A stretch of DNA of 52,943 nucleotides from Myxococcales bacterium (GTDB lineage: Bacteria; Myxococcota_A; UBA9160; SMWR01): NCBI GenBank assembly GCA_029881215.1, contig JAOUNA010000002.1, positions 1-52,943 of the forward strand, read 5' to 3'. Positions within the stretch are counted from its first letter, which is position 1; each line of letters starts with the position of its first letter. Below are positions 25,032 through 35,127 of this stretch, piece by piece. A program made the translations under genes and the position numbers. The notes beneath the pieces are model-generated. The model was given only the letters and a program-made list of their open reading frames with translations. It ran no database searches and had not been told where the DNA came from.

Positions 25032-25201
25032 GAATCCCTCCGGCGGCCGTGCCCCACGCAGGCACCCTGCCTCGCACGGGGTCGTTGCGGAGCCGGGCGA
25101 GCATACAACGCCCGGCCGGGGAGGGCCGACGGCGCACTACACCGCCGGCGCGAGCCGGTCGATAGATGGGGTCGGAGCCCTGCCGGATCACGGAGAGCTG
25201 C

Positions 25202-26167
25202 ATGCGAAGCGCGCGCTACGAACGCATGACGAAGATCCTGGCCGATCCGGACGTGATGCTGCGCGTGGCCGAACGGATCGGCCGCTTCGAGTTGGGCACG
25301 CGCGACACCCGTCCGGGCGATGCCAGCGAGAGCTTTGCGCCGCGCCAGCGCGCAGCGCTGCAGGCGCACGCAAGCTACTTCCGGGAGAGGTACTTCGAAA
25401 GCGGCAGCTCCGTCGCCGGCATCGAGCCCCTGTTGCAGCACGCAGTCTTCATCGAAGCCTCGAAGCACCTGTACGGCAGGACGCACGTGCGCCCCGTTTC
25501 CGTGTGGGCGAACCTGCTGCTGCCCGGACAGAAGATCGCCCTGCACACGGACGTGCCCGAGTTCCGCGGCATGCGTCGGGGCAAGGAGCCGGACTGGCTG
25601 CTCGTCGCGATGCACCACTCGGGGCTCTTCGACGACTGGCGCATTTCCGCGGCCACCATCGTGATCTGCTTCGGCAGCGAACCCGCCGGCGGAGAGTTCG
25701 TCTTCTACCCCGACGGCCCCTACGGGCGCTCGGTCGCCGCCCCCGCCGAGCCGAACACCGGCATCTTGTTCGACGCGGAGAGCGTGTACCACGGGGTCGA
25801 TTCGCTGGCGCGGAAGAACACGTCCCTGCCCGAGCTCACGCCGCGCGTGGCGCTGCGCTACGGCGGTGACGGCGCGTGGGTACTCGACGACGACCACTCG
25901 GAGATGGCGCGCTACCGCTGGGAAGACGTGCGCTACGCGGTGGCCTGGAAGGCACACTGCTTCGCCGACGCCGCGGAGGAGACCAAGGTGCGCGAACACA
26001 CCCGCGACATCTCGCGCCAGCGCGTGCTCGAGGTCTTGCGCGACGATCTGAACAGCCGAGGCCGCGGAGGAGACGCGCCGCGGGACGAAACCCAGCTCGC
26101 GCAGAGAATCTTCGAAAACTACGTGAAATTCCCGCCCGCCAGGCCCTCGACCGCCGCGGGGCGCTGA
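25202..26167 (+). CDS. Putative 2-oxoglutarate/Fe(II) oxygenase-like protein
   Basis: Possible HxD...H facial triad (ALHTDVPEFRG ... VYHGVDS) with downstream Arg (TPRVALRYGG). Confidence 0.5.
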   Translation: MRSARYERMTKILADPDVMLRVAERIGRFELGTRDTRPGDASESFAPRQRAALQAHASYFRERYFESGSSVAGIEPLLQHAVFIEASKHLYGRTHVRPVSVWANLLLPGQKIALHTDVPEFRGMRRGKEPDWLLVAMHHSGLFDDWRISAATIVICFGSEPAGGEFVFYPDGPYGRSVAAPAEPNTGILFDAESVYHGVDSLARKNTSLPELTPRVALRYGGDGAWVLDDDHSEMARYRWEDVRYAVAWKAHCFADAAEETKVREHTRDISRQRVLEVLRDDLNSRGRGGDAPRDETQLAQRIFENYVKFPPARPSTAAGR

Positions 26168-26288: not shown

Positions 26289-28088
26289 GTGGGCGACGCG
26301 AACGAACTCCGGCGCATCCTCTCGCGCATCGACGGCAGGGGCTACAAAGCCTATCGCGACCTGCGCGGCGCGTTCGACCTCGGAAGCTCGACCCTGTACG
26401 TGGACCGCGTGCAGGCCGATCCCTTCGCCGCGCCGACGCGGATCCGCGTGCGCATCCCCGCCGAGCGCGCGTCGCTGCCGCCCTCTTCCCTCGAGAATCG
26501 CGTCCGCCGCCTGGCGCTCGCCGACTTCCTCGCGCGCCGGGTGCGCGACGCGACCGACCAGCTCGGCGACCGGAAGCGGGGCAGCGCCAGCAGCGGCCTC
26601 GTGCGCGTGGACGCCGGGGGGCAGCAGGTGCTGGAGCGCAGTGCCGTCGCAATCGCAGACGACTGGGTCGAGGTGCGGCTCGAGGTCGGGCTGCCGGCGG
26701 CGGGACGGCGCGTGCTCGGCCGGCAGGCGGAGGCGCTGCTGTGCGGCGATGTCGCGCGCGTCGCCGAGCGCGGACTCTGCGCGGCGCACGGGCCCGAGGG
26801 CGCGCTGCGTGAGTTCGTCGCGTGCGTCGAGAACCAGGAGGATTTGCGCGCGCAGCTCGACCGCCTCGGCCTGCTCGCATTCGTGGCGAATGGCGCGGTG
26901 CTGCCCCGTGAGAGCGGCAGGAGCGATCGACCGCTGCGCGGCGACGCGGTGATTCCCTTCGCGGCGCCGCGCAGCCTCGAGGTGGAGCTCTCGCTCACGC
27001 ATCCGATGCCGGGCCCGGAAGGCCCGCGCCGAACGCTCACGGGCCTGGGCATTCCGAAGGGCGTGACGCTCATCGTGGGCGGCGGCTACCACGGCAAGTC
27101 GACCCTGCTGCGCGCGCTCGAGCGCGCTGTGTATCCGCACATTCCGGGAGATGGCCGGGAGTGGGTGGTGAGTCGCCCGGATCTGGTGAAGATCCGCGCC
27201 GAGGATGGCCGGCGCGTGGCGTGCGTCGACATCAGCGGCTTCATCTCGGCGCTGCCCGGGGGTCGCCGCACGGACGTCTTCTCGAGCGACGACGCGAGCG
27301 GCAGCACCAGCCAGGCCGCCAACATCGTCGAAGCGGTGGAGGCCGGCGCGCGCGGCCTGCTGCTCGACGAGGACACCTCGGCCACCAACTTCATGGTGCG
27401 CGACGCGCGCATGCAGGCGCTGATCGCGAAGCAGCACGAGCCCATCACCCCCTTCCTCGACCGCGTCCGCGAGCTCTACGAGCGCCAGGGCGTCTCGAGC
27501 GTGCTGGTCATGGGCGGCTGCGGGGACTACTTCGACGTCGCCGACACCGTGATCCTGATGCGCGAGTATCGCCCCCACGACGCCACCCGCAAGGCGCGCA
27601 GCATCGCGCGCGCCCAACCCTCCGCGCGCCGCGCGGAGCTTCGCGACCCCCTGCCGGTCAGCCCCGCGCGCATTCCGCGGCCGGACAGCATCGACGCTTC
27701 GCGGGGCCGGCGCGAAGTGAAGATCGACGCGAAGCACATCGACCTCATCGTCTACGGAACCGAGCCGATCGACCTGCGCTGCGTGGAACAGCTGGTGGAC
27801 CCGAGCCAGACGCGCGCAATCGGCTTCGCGATCCACCTGGCAGCGGAGCGGTTCATGCAGGCGGACGCCTCGCTTGCCGAGATTCTCGAGGCTCTCGAGG
27901 CATTTCTCGACGCCCGGGGACTCGACGCCCTCGAGCCCTTTCACCGCCCGGAGCTTCACCCGGGCAACCTGGCCCGGCCCCGCCGCTTCGAAATCGCCGC
28001 CGCGCTCAACCGCCTGCGAACCCTCGAGATGCGCGTGCTGTCCGAGGGCGCATCCGATGGCCTCGGGCGGCGGGACAGAACCGGGTAA
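26289..28088 (+). CDS. ABC-class P-loop ATPase, COG3044 / MRB1590-like
   Basis: LTGLGIPKGVTLIVGGGYHGKSTLLRALERAVYPHIPGDGREWVV, DASGSTSQAANIVEAVEAGARGLLLDEDTSATNFM; GTG start at 26289 or 26217. Confidence 0.85.
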   Translation: MGDANELRRILSRIDGRGYKAYRDLRGAFDLGSSTLYVDRVQADPFAAPTRIRVRIPAERASLPPSSLENRVRRLALADFLARRVRDATDQLGDRKRGSASSGLVRVDAGGQQVLERSAVAIADDWVEVRLEVGLPAAGRRVLGRQAEALLCGDVARVAERGLCAAHGPEGALREFVACVENQEDLRAQLDRLGLLAFVANGAVLPRESGRSDRPLRGDAVIPFAAPRSLEVELSLTHPMPGPEGPRRTLTGLGIPKGVTLIVGGGYHGKSTLLRALERAVYPHIPGDGREWVVSRPDLVKIRAEDGRRVACVDISGFISALPGGRRTDVFSSDDASGSTSQAANIVEAVEAGARGLLLDEDTSATNFMVRDARMQALIAKQHEPITPFLDRVRELYERQGVSSVLVMGGCGDYFDVADTVILMREYRPHDATRKARSIARAQPSARRAELRDPLPVSPARIPRPDSIDASRGRREVKIDAKHIDLIVYGTEPIDLRCVEQLVDPSQTRAIGFAIHLAAERFMQADASLAEILEALEAFLDARGLDALEPFHRPELHPGNLARPRRFEIAAALNRLRTLEMRVLSEGASDGLGRRDRTG

Positions 28089-28099
28089 GCTCACGGCCC

Positions 28100-29038
28100 A
28101 TGAAGCGCGTGCTCTGCCTCTTCACGACGCGACCCGCGATCGTCGAGCTGACGCCCGTGCTGCGCGCGCTCGACGCACGCCGCGAGCGCATCGCGACGCG
28201 CCACGTGGCCGCCTCCCCGCGCGCAGAGCTCCTCCAGCTCTTCGCGCGCGACGTCGGCATGCGAGTCGATCACGACCTCCCGCTGGCGGAGACGTGTCAG
28301 AGTGCGGCAGAGATCGTCTCCAGCGTGCTCGCGTCGCTCGATCCGCTCTTCGAGAGCGAGCCGATCCAGCTGCTGCTCGTCCAGGGAGAGACGAGCGCGG
28401 CGCTGGCCGGCGCGCTCGGCGCCTTCCTGCGCGGCATTCCCGTCGCCTACCTGGAGGCGGATGCATCCGTTCGGGCAGGCGCGCAGCCTTCGCCCGAGGC
28501 GTTTCATCACAGACTCATCGCGCATCTGGCTTCGCTGCACTTTGCGCCGACGCAGGGCAGCGGAGACAGTGGAGAGCGCATCGCCGATGCCCTCGAACGC
28601 TTCCTCGCGGCACGATCGGCGCGCGCGCGCGACGCAGACCCGTCGCCCGGCGCGGCCCGCTCGCTCGCGGATTTCGTGGCGGCGGCGAAGCAGTGCGTCG
28701 TGGAAATCCCGCCCGAGGAGGCGCGGCGCATCCTCGACGCACCGGATCGCGAGGGCTGGAGCTTCGTGGATGTGCGCGAGCCGGACGAATACGCCGAAGG
28801 CCACGTACCCGGCGCCCGCAGCTTCCCGCGCGGCTTTCTCGAGGTTCGGGCAGACCTCGAGCACTACAAGCGCGATGCCTGGCTCGCGGACCGCAGCCGC
28901 AAGCTGATCCTCTACTGCGGCGGGGGGCATCGCAGCGCGCTGGCCGCGCAGACCCTGCGGCAGATGGGATTCCAGCGCGTGGTGTCGATGTCGGAAGGTT
29001 GGACGGGCTGGACGCAGCGCGACTACCCGCAGGAGTGA
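28100..29038 (+). CDS. Fusion: N-terminal half of UDP-GlcNAc 2-epimerase (WecB-like Rossmann domain) + C-terminal rhodanese domain
   Basis: N: TTRPAIVELTPVLRAL...LLVQGETSAALAGALGAFLRGIPVAYLEADASVRAG...SPEAFHHRLIAHLASLHFAPTQ; C: GWSFVDVREPDEYAEGHVPGARSFPRGFL...KLILYCGGGHRSALAAQTLRQMGFQRVVSMSEGWTGW. Confidence 0.82.
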   Translation: MKRVLCLFTTRPAIVELTPVLRALDARRERIATRHVAASPRAELLQLFARDVGMRVDHDLPLAETCQSAAEIVSSVLASLDPLFESEPIQLLLVQGETSAALAGALGAFLRGIPVAYLEADASVRAGAQPSPEAFHHRLIAHLASLHFAPTQGSGDSGERIADALERFLAARSARARDADPSPGAARSLADFVAAAKQCVVEIPPEEARRILDAPDREGWSFVDVREPDEYAEGHVPGARSFPRGFLEVRADLEHYKRDAWLADRSRKLILYCGGGHRSALAAQTLRQMGFQRVVSMSEGWTGWTQRDYPQE

Positions 29039-29102
29039 TGCGGCGGGCGCCAGCGGGCCGCCCGCGCGGCCGCCGCGCGCCGCCGCGGCTATGCTTCGCG
29101 GC

Positions 29103-29726
29103 ATGGTCCATCGCTTCGACTCGGCGCTGCGCGGACGCGTCGCTGCCCACTTGCAGCGCTTCGATTGCCGCGCCCACGGCGGGCCCGGCCTGCGCCACGC
29201 GGCGGTCGCGGTCACGCTTCTCGCCGACGGCGAAGGCCGCGCCTGTTTCGCGCTCACGCGGCGCACCACGCGCCTGAGCGCCCACAAGGGGCAATGGGCG
29301 CTCCCCGGCGGACGCGTGGACGCCGGCGAGACACCCGCCGAGGCCGCCTTGCGCGAGCTCGGCGAAGAGCTCGGGCTCGAGCTCCCGGCCGACAGCGTGC
29401 TCGGCCGGCTCGACGACTACCCGACGCGCTCGGGCTACTGCATCAGCCCGGTGGTGATCTGGGCGGGCGACGGCGCCCGACTCGAGCCGAACCCGGACGA
29501 GGTCGCCGCCGCCTACTGCGTGCCGCTGGCGGAGCTCGAGCGCGACGACGTGCCGCGGCTGCGGGCCATTCCCGAGAGCGATCGCCCCGTGCTCTGCATC
29601 CCCCTGCTGGGCGCGCACATCCACGCGCCGACGGCGGCCATCCTGTACCAGCTGCGCGAGGTGGGGCTGCGCGGCGAGGCCACGCGCGTGGCCCACTACG
29701 AGCAGCCGGTCTTCGCCTGGCGCTGA
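29103..29726 (+). CDS. Nudix hydrolase
   Basis: Nudix box GGRVDAGETPAEAALRELGEELGL. Confidence 0.93.
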   Translation: MVHRFDSALRGRVAAHLQRFDCRAHGGPGLRHAAVAVTLLADGEGRACFALTRRTTRLSAHKGQWALPGGRVDAGETPAEAALRELGEELGLELPADSVLGRLDDYPTRSGYCISPVVIWAGDGARLEPNPDEVAAAYCVPLAELERDDVPRLRAIPESDRPVLCIPLLGAHIHAPTAAILYQLREVGLRGEATRVAHYEQPVFAWR

Positions 29727-30548: not shown

Positions 30549-33350
30549 TCAGTCGGCCACGCGCTCCACGCGCACCGCGCAGAACTTGAACTCGGGGATC
30601 TTCCCGTCCGGATCGAGCTCGTCGAGGGTGAGCAAATTGGCCGCGGCCTCGCGGAAGTGGAACGGGATGAATACGGACCCCGGGTACTCGCGCACCGCGA
30701 CGCGCGCGCGCAACGTGACGCTGCCCCGAGGACTCGCGACGCGCACCCGATCCCCGTCGGCGATATCGAGCTTGGCAGCGTCATCCGGATGGATGCCGAC
30801 GAACGCCTCCGGCTCGATGGCATCCAGGGCCCGGGCGCGGCGCGTCATCGAGCCGGTGTGCCAGTGCTCGAGCAGGCGGCCGGTGTTCAGCACGAACGGA
30901 TAGACGTCGTCGGGCAGCTCGCGCGCCGCCTCCCACTCGGCCGGCACGAACTTCGCCTTGCCGCTCTCCGTGGGGAAGCCGCCCGAGAACAGCACGACGG
31001 GGCCGTCCTCGTTCTCGGGGTCCGGATTCGGCCACAACCTTCCGGTCGGGCTGAGATTCCCGTAGGAGAGCGTCGCGTAGGAGCCCGAGAGCTGCGCGAA
31101 CTCGTCGAAGATCTCCTCCGAAGAGCCGTAGTGCATCGGGTAGCCCATGCGCGTCGAGATGTCGCAGATGATCTGCCAGTCGAGTCGCGCCTGGCCGGGC
31201 ATGCGCAGGGCGGGGCGACCGATCTGCACGCGGCGGTCCGTATTGGTGTAGGTGCCGAGCTTCTCGAGATAGGCGCTGGCCGGCAGGATCACGTCTGCGA
31301 ACTCGGCCGTTTCGGTCAAGAAGATGTCCTGCACCACGAGGAAGTCGAGATTGGCCAGCGCCTGGCGCACCTTGTTGACGTTCGGGTCCGAGAGGAAGGG
31401 ATTCTCTCCCATGATGTACATGCCCTGGATGCTGCCCTCGAGCGCGCCCTTCGTGATCTCGACGACCGTGAGGCCGCGCACCGGCGAGAGCGGCCGCCCC
31501 CAAGCCCGCTCGAACTTTTCGCGAACCTCGGGGTTCTCGACGGGCTGATAGTCCGGATACGCCATGGGGATCAGGCCCGCGTCGCTGGCGCCTTGCACGT
31601 TGTTCTGACCGCGCAGCGGATGCAGTCCCGAGCCCGCCCTTCCCACGTTGCCCGTCAACAGCGCGAGCGAGATGAGACAGCGCGCGTTGTTCGTGCCGTA
31701 TACGTGCTGCGAGATGCCCATGCCCCAGAAGATGATCGCGCTCCGCGCTCGACCGAACGCGCGCGCAATCGCGCGGATGGTGTCCGGCTCGATGCCGCAG
31801 ATCTTCGCGGCCAGGTCCGGCGTGTACCTGCCGACCACCTCCCGCAGCGCATCGAAATTCTCCGTGTGCTGCTCCACGTAGGCCCGATCCACCAGATCCT
31901 CCGCGATGATGACGTGCATCATCGCGTTGTAGAAGGCCACGTCGGTACCGGGCTTGATGCGGCAGTAGAAATCCGCGTGATCGGCCAGATCGGAGCGCCG
32001 CGGATCCACGACGATGAGCTTCGTTCCCGCCTTGTGCGCCTGCTTGAAGAAGCTGGCCGCAACGGGGTGATTGGCGGTGGCATTCGAGCCAACCACCAAC
32101 GCGGCCTCGGCGTTGACGATGTCGCCGTACGTGGTGGTGACGGCGCCGCTGCCGATCATCTCGAGCAGGGCAGCCACGCTCGACGCATGACACAAGCGCG
32201 TGCAGTGATCGACGTTGTGCGTTCCCCAGGCCGCGCGGATCAACTTCTGGAAGAGATACGCCTCCTCGTTGGAGCACTTCGCGCTGCCGAAGCCCGCCAG
32301 CGCGTCCGGCCCGCTCGTGTCCCGAATGGCGCAGAGTCGCGCCGCGACGAGATCGAGCGCCTCGTCCCAGGTTGCCTCGCGGAAGGCGGGCATCACCTCC
32401 GCGTAGTCGACCAGACCACCGGGCTTGCGGCGCCCATCGTGCTCGCCGCGGACGTCTCTCGACAGGGCTCCCTTCGGGTAGTGGGAGTCCCGCCGGATCA
32501 GCGGCACCGTCAGTCGCTGCGCGTGCTGCGCGTAGTCCCAGCCGTAGCGACCCTTGACACACAGGCGCTGCTGATTCCCCGGGCTCTCGCGGCCCTCGGC
32601 GAAGACGATCGAATTCTCTTGTTCGTCCACGTAGTAGGTGAGCGCACAACCGACGCCGCAGTAGGGACAGACGCTGGCGACCCGCGCGAGCTGCGCTCGA
32701 GGCCGCAGCGGCCGAACGATCGGCTTGTCCACCAGGGCGCCGGTCGGACACACCGCGGCGCACTCGCCGCAGGACACGCAGCTGCTCGCGCCCATCGGAA
32801 GGTCCAGATCGAACGCGATGCGCGCGCTGTAGCCCTTGCCGGTACGGCCCATGACCTCGTTGTTCTGCACATCGTCACACGCGCGTATGCAGCGATCACA
32901 GAGGATGCAGGCCTGGTGATCGACGGCAATCACCGACGAGCTTGCATCCGTCGGCCGGGCGTCGCCGCGGGGCAGGCGCTCGCCCCGCGCATCGTAACGG
33001 CGGGCGAGATCGAGCAGCGCGTTGCCTCCCACGGTGGATTCCTTGGGATCCTCCGCCTCGGTCGGCTGATCCGACATCAAGAGCTCGGTGAGCATCTTGC
33101 GATGCAACTCGACTTCGGGCGTGGAGGTCTTGACTTCCATGCCCGGGGCGCAGCGGCGCACGCAGGACGCCGCCAGCACGCGCTCTCCGACGTCCACCAC
33201 GCACATGCGACAGACGCCCACGGGGTCGAGGCGGGAATCGTGACACAGCACCGGAATCTCGATGCCGCGGGAACGCGCGGCCTCCCAGATCGTGGCGCCC
33301 TCGTGCACCTCGACCCGCAACCCGTCGATCGTGAGCTCGATCCTCGACAC
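30549..33350 (-). CDS. Formate dehydrogenase alpha subunit, NAD-linked FdsA/FdhF type (Mo/W bis-MGD, Cys form)
   Basis: N-term 2Fe-2S (IPVLCHDSRLDPVGVCRMCVVDVG), 4Fe-4S (CILCDRCIRAC; CVSCGECAAVCPTGAL), CPYCGVGC, active-site region DHCTRLCHASSVAALLEMIGSGA. Confidence 0.9.
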   Translation of the reverse strand: MSRIELTIDGLRVEVHEGATIWEAARSRGIEIPVLCHDSRLDPVGVCRMCVVDVGERVLAASCVRRCAPGMEVKTSTPEVELHRKMLTELLMSDQPTEAEDPKESTVGGNALLDLARRYDARGERLPRGDARPTDASSSVIAVDHQACILCDRCIRACDDVQNNEVMGRTGKGYSARIAFDLDLPMGASSCVSCGECAAVCPTGALVDKPIVRPLRPRAQLARVASVCPYCGVGCALTYYVDEQENSIVFAEGRESPGNQQRLCVKGRYGWDYAQHAQRLTVPLIRRDSHYPKGALSRDVRGEHDGRRKPGGLVDYAEVMPAFREATWDEALDLVAARLCAIRDTSGPDALAGFGSAKCSNEEAYLFQKLIRAAWGTHNVDHCTRLCHASSVAALLEMIGSGAVTTTYGDIVNAEAALVVGSNATANHPVAASFFKQAHKAGTKLIVVDPRRSDLADHADFYCRIKPGTDVAFYNAMMHVIIAEDLVDRAYVEQHTENFDALREVVGRYTPDLAAKICGIEPDTIRAIARAFGRARSAIIFWGMGISQHVYGTNNARCLISLALLTGNVGRAGSGLHPLRGQNNVQGASDAGLIPMAYPDYQPVENPEVREKFERAWGRPLSPVRGLTVVEITKGALEGSIQGMYIMGENPFLSDPNVNKVRQALANLDFLVVQDIFLTETAEFADVILPASAYLEKLGTYTNTDRRVQIGRPALRMPGQARLDWQIICDISTRMGYPMHYGSSEEIFDEFAQLSGSYATLSYGNLSPTGRLWPNPDPENEDGPVVLFSGGFPTESGKAKFVPAEWEAARELPDDVYPFVLNTGRLLEHWHTGSMTRRARALDAIEPEAFVGIHPDDAAKLDIADGDRVRVASPRGSVTLRARVAVREYPGSVFIPFHFREAAANLLTLDELDPDGKIPEFKFCAVRVERVAD

Positions 33351-33354
33351 GCGC

Positions 33355-35127
33355 CTAGATTCCCACCGGTTGGCTGTCGACCGCGAGGTCTGCGAGCACC
33401 GAGGCGGAAAGATATCCCCGCTCGGTCCAGCCGCGGGCGAGATTGTAGCTGCGAATCATCTCCTGGAGGCATTCGCGCGTGAGGCGCGCGCCGTCGGCCG
33501 TGCCGTCGGGGAGCGACTCCGAGAGAAAGCGCTCCGGGAGCGCGTCGTCCTCGGGCTTCCAGCCTTCGCGGATGTTGAACGACTTGCGCAGGCTGACGAT
33601 GCGCCGCGCGATCCCCTGGAGCTCGGCGGCGCTGACATCCCATCCCACGACGGCTTGCAGCAGCTCCGCCGTGTCCGCGTAGAAATCCTCGAAGACGCCG
33701 CGCAGGAACTTGCAGAGGATGAGCGAGTCGATCAACGCCGCCCGATCCTCCGTTTCGAGCGCGAGCTGCGCGGCCCGCGCGTCCCCGTGCAGGCGGTCCA
33801 CGCGATCCGAGAAATCGAGCTCGTAGGCGCCACTCCTGTTGTGATCCGCCCCGCGCGTGCCCACCGCAAAGCCGAGCGCCATCGTCTGCAACGCACGGGG
33901 CTCGTATCCCGGAATTTCGAGTCCCTTCACCTGCGGCGCAAAGTCGAGGCTGCCGCGACCGACCTGGATCGCTGCGCGGCGCGAGCCTTCCGCGAGGAGA
34001 TCGCCCAGCCCGCGCCGCTGCGCGATGTCGTCGAGCAGCGCGAGCAGCCCCGCACCGTCGCCAAAGCGCGGCGCTTCGGGCAGGTAGCCGCGCTCGCCGC
34101 ACTCCATCGCGAATGCGATGGTGCCGCCGGCCGAAACGGTGTCGAGGCCGAGTTCGTCGCAGCGCCGCGATGCGGCCAGCACGGCGTCTGCGTCCGAGAC
34201 GCCACAGAGGGAGCCCAGCGCGAAGAGGTTCTCGTACTCGATCCGCGTCCTGTCGGTCCTGTTGAAGCCGTAGATGTGCGTGCAGCCGATGGTGCAGCTC
34301 GCGCACGTCGATCGAGCCCGCTCGCGCGCGCTCTGCAGGTCCTCGGCCGCGAGCGCCTCCGCGCCGGCAAAGCTGCCGCTCTGAAAGTTTCGCGTGGGAA
34401 GCGCGGCAATCCGGTTGAACGCCATCAGATTCGCCACCGTGCCGAGCTCTCGGTACTTGGCGGTCTCGGGGCCGAGCGAGCGCCGGGACAGCTCCCGCGC
34501 GAGACGCGCGACCCGCTCCGGATCCGCGACGGGCGTGACCTGCTCGCCGTCGACCACGAGGGCCTTGAGACGCTTGGCGCCCATGACGGCGCCGAGACCT
34601 CCGCGGCCCGCGTGGCGCCCGTCGTTCGAGATCGTCGCGAAGCGCACGCCGTTCTCGCCCGCCACACCGATCGCCGCCACGCGCCCGTGAGGGGCGAGCG
34701 CCTCCGCCGCCTCCCGGGCGGAGCACCCCCACAGCGACGTCGGGCGCAGCGCGCCATTCACGAGCTCCGAAGGCTGCGCACAGCGGCCGACCAGCACGAT
34801 GGCGTCGACGCCGCTGCGCTTGCCGGCGATCGCGAAATGCGAGCCCGAGAGGCCGTCGCTGACGAATCCCGTGAGCGGCGACTTCCCCACCACCGCGAGC
34901 TTCGCGGAGGTCGTGAGCGGCGTGCCGACCAGGGGCGAGAAGCAGAAGATCAGGGGCGCCTCCGGAGACAGCGGATCCACGCGCGGCGGCGCCTCGCGGT
35001 GCAGCAGCCAGGCGCCCAGCCCCACGCCCCCCAGATGTCGGCGCAACACCGACTCGGGCAGCGGAAGGATTTCCTGGCGGCCCGTGGTCAGATCGAATCG
35101 CGCGTAGCGACCGTGGAATCCGTACAC
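33355..35127 (-). CDS. Aldehyde:ferredoxin oxidoreductase (AOR) family
   Basis: GLGAWLLHREAPPRVDPLSPEAPLIFCFSPLVGTPLTTSAKLAVVGKSPLTG, GRGGLGAVMGAKRLKALVV, TCASCTIGCTHIY, TRGADHNRSGAYE. Confidence 0.95.
   Translation of the reverse strand: MYGFHGRYARFDLTTGRQEILPLPESVLRRHLGGVGLGAWLLHREAPPRVDPLSPEAPLIFCFSPLVGTPLTTSAKLAVVGKSPLTGFVSDGLSGSHFAIAGKRSGVDAIVLVGRCAQPSELVNGALRPTSLWGCSAREAAEALAPHGRVAAIGVAGENGVRFATISNDGRHAGRGGLGAVMGAKRLKALVVDGEQVTPVADPERVARLARELSRRSLGPETAKYRELGTVANLMAFNRIAALPTRNFQSGSFAGAEALAAEDLQSARERARSTCASCTIGCTHIYGFNRTDRTRIEYENLFALGSLCGVSDADAVLAASRRCDELGLDTVSAGGTIAFAMECGERGYLPEAPRFGDGAGLLALLDDIAQRRGLGDLLAEGSRRAAIQVGRGSLDFAPQVKGLEIPGYEPRALQTMALGFAVGTRGADHNRSGAYELDFSDRVDRLHGDARAAQLALETEDRAALIDSLILCKFLRGVFEDFYADTAELLQAVVGWDVSAAELQGIARRIVSLRKSFNIREGWKPEDDALPERFLSESLPDGTADGARLTRECLQEMIRSYNLARGWTERGYLSASVLADLAVDSQPVGI

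Follow-up and report, generated by a model that had tools for sequence, protein, structure and literature searches.

A partly eroded half of a WecB-type epimerase joined in frame to a complete rhodanese in a Myxococcales bacterium

In UDP-GlcNAc 2-epimerases of the GT-B type the substrate sits in a cleft between two domains, and the last helix of WecB packs on the N-terminal domain in the structure of P. alvei MnaA (PaMnaA) (PMC11464976). Single-domain rhodaneses (PF00581) of the order examined here typically have a CGGGHRS active-site loop and, as stand-alone proteins, are roughly 130 residues long, starting near (A/S)(K/R)SLADFV. We analyzed a stretch of 52,943 nucleotides from a Myxococcales bacterium (the window), in which one gene encodes a portion of a WecB/MnaA protein (TIGR00236, PF02350) followed by such a rhodanese. 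The terms UDP-N-acetylglucosamine 2-epimerase, rhodanese and fusion were not found together in the literature searched; WecB and rhodanese were mentioned together there in a Yersinia pestis gene essentiality study, which, judging by its title, is apparently unrelated.

The fusion protein and its junction

The fusion gene, at 28100–29038 (+), is an uninterrupted reading frame of 312 residues plus stop. Its first 154 residues (28100–28561, +) form a WecB-type N-terminal Rossmann domain. Pfam Epimerase_2 matched residues 41–154 over profile positions 19–133 of 347, far beyond chance, with 58.2 bits against a cut-off of 30.6. The NCBIfam wecB model TIGR00236 matched residues 4–154 (profile 3–152 of 366) with 94.2 bits, below its curated equivalog cut-off of 210 bits, and the second Rossmann domain of WecB was absent by both Pfam and alignment. 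The Pfam Rhodanese profile matched residues 206–306 (28715–29017, +) over positions 3–101 of 102 with 74.6 bits, a full-length domain above cut-off. These matches bear out a sequence-only reading of this DNA, which had described a GT-B epimerase half attached to a complete rhodanese. AF2, run on a small alignment, gave a pLDDT of about 90 across most of residues 1–120 and a helix at 158–178. The rhodanese part, sparsely covered by that alignment, was poorly modelled as a result; alignments that mixed fragments of the N-domain with those of the rhodanese were misaligned and were left out of the folding. Among the Foldseek matches listed (top 50, both models), all were UDP-GlcNAc 2-epimerases or close relatives, with E values down to 3e-11; given that the AF2 alignments contained WecB rows, this indicates compatibility with, rather than proof of, the WecB N-domain fold.

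In the alignment LHFAPTQ runs directly into GSGDSGERIADALERFLA (residues ~155–175), which we read as the C-terminal last helix of WecB (compare GQGDAGERIADAIETFL in the related genome G004 and GDGDAGPKIAAEVERFLA in G007). This remnant, residues 158–178 (28571–28633, +; GERIADALERFLA against GERIADAIETFL in G004), coincides with the predicted helix. MAFFT had aligned the piece to the GNPVVDAL segment with which the linker begins; we preferred the manual assignment because GERIADA-L/I-E-x-FL is clearly the better match and because in G007 this helix is followed by a linker of the same kind. By the same manual reading, the junction lies at 28562–28570 (+), where about 190 residues are missing relative to the WecBs of G007 and G004, namely the end of the N-domain, the linker and the whole second Rossmann domain. 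The sequence-only reading was thus correct about the N-domain, but its endpoint, LHFAPT, was set too early, as the last helix also derives from WecB. A linker and the rhodanese N-terminal helix (PSPGAARSLADFVAAAK; 28634–28714, +) follow.

The rhodanese active-site loop, CGGGHRSA at 28916–28939 (+), is near-universal among 24 orthologues and is of the C-x4-R-S type (C273-GGGHRS); the window protein is most likely a sulfurtransferase using Cys273. The domain is 66–78% identical to the rhodaneses at the same site in the family, and the closest solved structures are PDB 6mxv and 1yt8.

Relatives at the conserved site

A gene from another genus of the same family (G007) shows the two proteins joined at full length: a single frame (L070:253-1773, 507 residues from a GTG start) encodes a complete WecB and then a rhodanese (Epimerase_2, 333 bits, profile 9–345; Rhodanese, 68 bits). 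Its WecB part is the nearest WecB relative of the window N-domain, with 51% identity. The two proteins share the domain order and a similar linker (PSPP-TARSLASFV / PSPGAARSLADFV), but G007 keeps the whole epimerase, including the HRRES, HPNP and SDSGG motifs of domain 2, whereas the window protein does not. A second genus of the family (G009) carries at the orthologous site a half-epimerase plus rhodanese like that of the window (328 residues scanned), in which Epimerase_2 was detected below its cut-off (22.6 bits, E 5.6e-5); about 20 more residues are kept before the break than in the window. In G004 the wecB (380 codons) and rhodanese (142 codons) frames are separate and adjacent, and the open frames overlap by 8 bases. 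Most other relatives have a stand-alone rhodanese at that site. Among 377 genomes of the phylum, one match spanning both halves was found only in the window genome (G000) and G009, and among the matches listed at E <= 1e-25 the intact fusion was found only in G007. The architecture is rare, as had been supposed, and the half-fusion occurs in 2 of the 17 family genomes. The window gene is the sole Epimerase_2 match in G000, and G009 has an intact WecB elsewhere in its genome.

The surrounding genes place all these forms at one site. The complete order OGDH - GST - UbiA - wecB - rhodanese - alpha/beta hydrolase - NUDIX is found in G004 (UbiA, alpha/beta hydrolase and OGDH being Pfam assignments, and GST named by sequence resemblance only). 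UbiA directly precedes the rhodanese, with no wecB, in six genomes (G006, G008, G010, G013, G015 and G016), and G003 has OGDH - GST - rhodanese - hydrolase - NUDIX. The G007 locus reads GST - fusion - hydrolase, at which point the contig ends; that of G009 reads OGDH - half fusion - hydrolase - NUDIX; and in the window the half fusion stands between an ABC-class ATPase gene and the NUDIX hydrolase gene (29091–29726, +) that marks the conserved site. By this comparison, the fusion occupies the former place of adjacent wecB and rhodanese genes. The sequence-only reading had proposed that the rhodanese replaced the second domain; G007, which carries both, points instead to fusion first and loss of domain 2 afterwards. 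In G005 (L073:4081-6780, −) the order is UbiA - wecB - NUDIX with the rhodanese missing, a reciprocal loss at the same site. Elsewhere in the window, a 333-residue frame at 25166–26167 (+) had no Pfam match at E<=0.001, and its HTDVPEF and later His residues are reminiscent of a 2-oxoglutarate/Fe(II) oxygenase; a molybdopterin oxidoreductase gene with ferredoxin-type domains (30549–33350, −) adjoins a gene of the aldehyde ferredoxin oxidoreductase family (33355–35127, −).

A species tree was built from LeuS and two UvrA copies (2757 columns), since the bins of G007 and G009 lack RpoB and RpoC. G007 and G009 were sisters (support 100/99.9), and a grouping of G000 with G009 was rejected (p-AU 2.7e-5); errors in MAG binning could mislead this tree, from which the foreign-looking LeuS of G006 and G013 was left out. 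Those two sequences (L190, L191) diverge strongly from the family, with a branch of 1.8, indicating replacement by transfer or mis-binning. Because G007 retains a full WecB and the junctions of G000 and G009 differ, the simplest reading is that domain 2 was lost independently in the two lineages, as apparently happened, although the two half-fusions could also stem from horizontal transfer or from an ancient history of polymorphism.

The three fusion genes, full or half, also share the sequence before the start. CGGG(C)TAAGCTC-N7-(A/G)TG precedes the start with identical spacing in G000, G007 and G009; among the loci inspected, it was not seen upstream of stand-alone rhodaneses or of wecB genes that are intact and separate. 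In the window, TAAGCT (28086–28091, +) lies 8 nt before the ATG and overlaps the stop codon of the ABC-class ATPase gene; it is possibly the −10 element of a near-leaderless promoter. The pattern occurred seven times in 91 genomes of the class, three of them at the fusion gene, and all seven stood before a frame of at least 138 codons starting at RTG; the pattern itself is not enriched, a reversed control being no rarer (about 20 matches), and it is the placement that is notable. The pattern, written as CGGG-N(0,1)-TAAGCTC-N7-(A/G)TG (window 28082–28102; L205–L211), a possible near-leaderless promoter motif, also stands before unrelated frames of the class that, by sequence only, resemble an enoyl-CoA hydratase, a protein kinase and an alpha/beta-hydrolase.

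State of the half-epimerase

Aligned residue by residue with intact WecBs, the TTRP, QGET, YLEA and SPEAF motifs of the window protein fall on GTRP, QGDT, HVEA and FPEEM. In PaMnaA numbering, R13, E121 and E135 are kept, K18, D99 and R139 have become E, E and H, and the allosteric QH pair reads PR. H208, S285 and E291 are absent, all belonging to the missing domain 2, and standard epimerase activity is for that reason very unlikely. Of the catalytic set D99, E121, E135 and H208, then, the window retains the two glutamates, with D99E and no H208, and G009 retains none; all six catalytic or substrate residues of the N-domain are changed in G009. A set of 11 intact WecBs shares 35 invariant N-domain positions, of which 21 are retained in the window and 14 in G009; in a leave-one-out control each intact WecB kept 35 of its 35–40 invariant positions.

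The half-epimerase has also evolved quickly. In the N-domain tree the end branch was 0.82 for G000 and 3.18 for G009 (4.66 when the neighboring branch beyond the midpoint root is added), against 0.17–0.37 for the close intact WecBs and 0.6–0.7 for three distant WecBs. In the rhodanese tree, which is too short for resolving relationships, the end branches were 0.16 for G000, 0.20 for G007 and 0.43 for G009. The N-domain tree left G000 unplaced on its long branch, and a grouping of G000 with G007 was not rejected (p-AU 0.17).

We compared these losses with neutral simulations at equal divergence, which pool the time before and after truncation, so that a constrained epimerase phase before truncation inflates retention. 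Invariant positions were kept near the neutral level in the window (21 against a mean of 17.5, P=0.12) and at 14 against a mean of 10 in G009 (P=0.05). Of 31 core sites, defined as hydrophobic but variable in all WecBs, 28 remained hydrophobic in the window (22.5 expected, P=0.005) and 25 in G009 (17.7 expected, P=0.003). The codon-position GC pattern was coding-like in both remnants. In a branch codon model the synonymous branch lengths ran to their bound, and at such saturation the model cannot measure selection after truncation. In short, the half-epimerase appears to be constrained in its fold and relaxed in its active site.

How the remnant may have persisted

We consider the window protein best explained, with a probability of about two in three, as a single-domain rhodanese carrying a folded, frame-locked and probably inactive half-WecB passenger left by erosion after a gene fusion. 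The family would ancestrally have had a row of genes for a UbiA-type prenyltransferase, WecB and the rhodanese. The latter two would then have become a single reading frame served by a short promoter region of its own, a state kept in G007, and in the G000 and G009 lineages this fused gene would subsequently have lost its second Rossmann domain. What was left, the N-domain and the helix packing on it, would be a unit still able to fold, in which the active site could decay while the fold and the reading frame had to be kept. Between residues 77 and 192 the window protein has no in-frame ATG, GTG or TTG, and a GTG at residue 193 already belongs to the first helix of the rhodanese. The rhodanese is therefore probably synthesized only as the C-terminus of the fusion; lacking a start codon of its own where the domain begins, it could not easily drop the remnant. 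Two points tell against a mere passenger: a real structural function would equally predict a remnant in two genera with its fold retained above the neutral level, and a few mutations could yield a nearer start (in-frame GTG and TTG codons are even present within the G009 remnant), so that frame-locking alone may not explain such long persistence.

A structural role, in which the half-epimerase dimerizes, positions or stabilizes the rhodanese and its active site is irrelevant, is the alternative that fares best, although we think it distinctly less probable. It would account for the core hydrophobic sites kept above expectation in both genera, for the retained last helix that completes the N-domain, for the confident AF2 model of that domain in G000, and for the same layout arising in two lineages whose grouping is rejected. 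However, relatives across the order carry the same rhodanese, about 60–78% identical, with no half-epimerase; the rate of evolution is several times higher in the half-epimerase than in the rhodanese; and the half-epimerase occurs in so few of the family genomes. That excision of one Rossmann domain, twice and independently after the fusion, created a new stable half-epimerase domain for sulfurtransferase oligomerization or partner docking seems to us slightly more doubtful still.

The sequence-only reading had favored a repurposed ligand-binding module, in which the half-domain would bind a nucleotide-sugar or other ligand and regulate the rhodanese. The R13, E121 and E135 equivalents are indeed kept in the window, but K18, D99, R139 and the allosteric QH pair are changed, the G009 set is gone entirely, and of the two domains that form the substrate cleft (PMC11464976) one is missing. 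Ligand binding would seem to be a property that the half-epimerase is losing, and we regard this proposal as very improbable. Least probable, and largely refuted, is an artefact of assembly or gene decay, whether a contig mis-join or a recent internal deletion, in what is a fragmented MAG (3.43 Mb in 375 contigs, 89% complete, 5% contamination), since the frame is open, the junction coincides with a boundary in the structure, mis-joining would not produce the many missense changes found at invariant positions, and the independent genome G009 has the same layout at the same site. The two outcomes that the sequence-only reading had named as fatal, a fusion absent from all relatives and an N-domain unrelated to Epimerase_2, did not occur.

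The favored account, of a rhodanese with an eroded half-WecB upstream, describes a real, rare and instructive case rather than a categorically new system. Annotation pipelines may label such a protein an epimerase, as Epimerase_2 passes its cut-off, though it is at most a sulfurtransferase. Adjacent genes, an intact fusion and a half fusion all survive at a single site among living relatives, so that successive stages in the dismantling of a two-domain enzyme within a fusion protein can be followed, and the family offers a case for asking whether an inactive domain may persist merely by being upstream in the reading frame.
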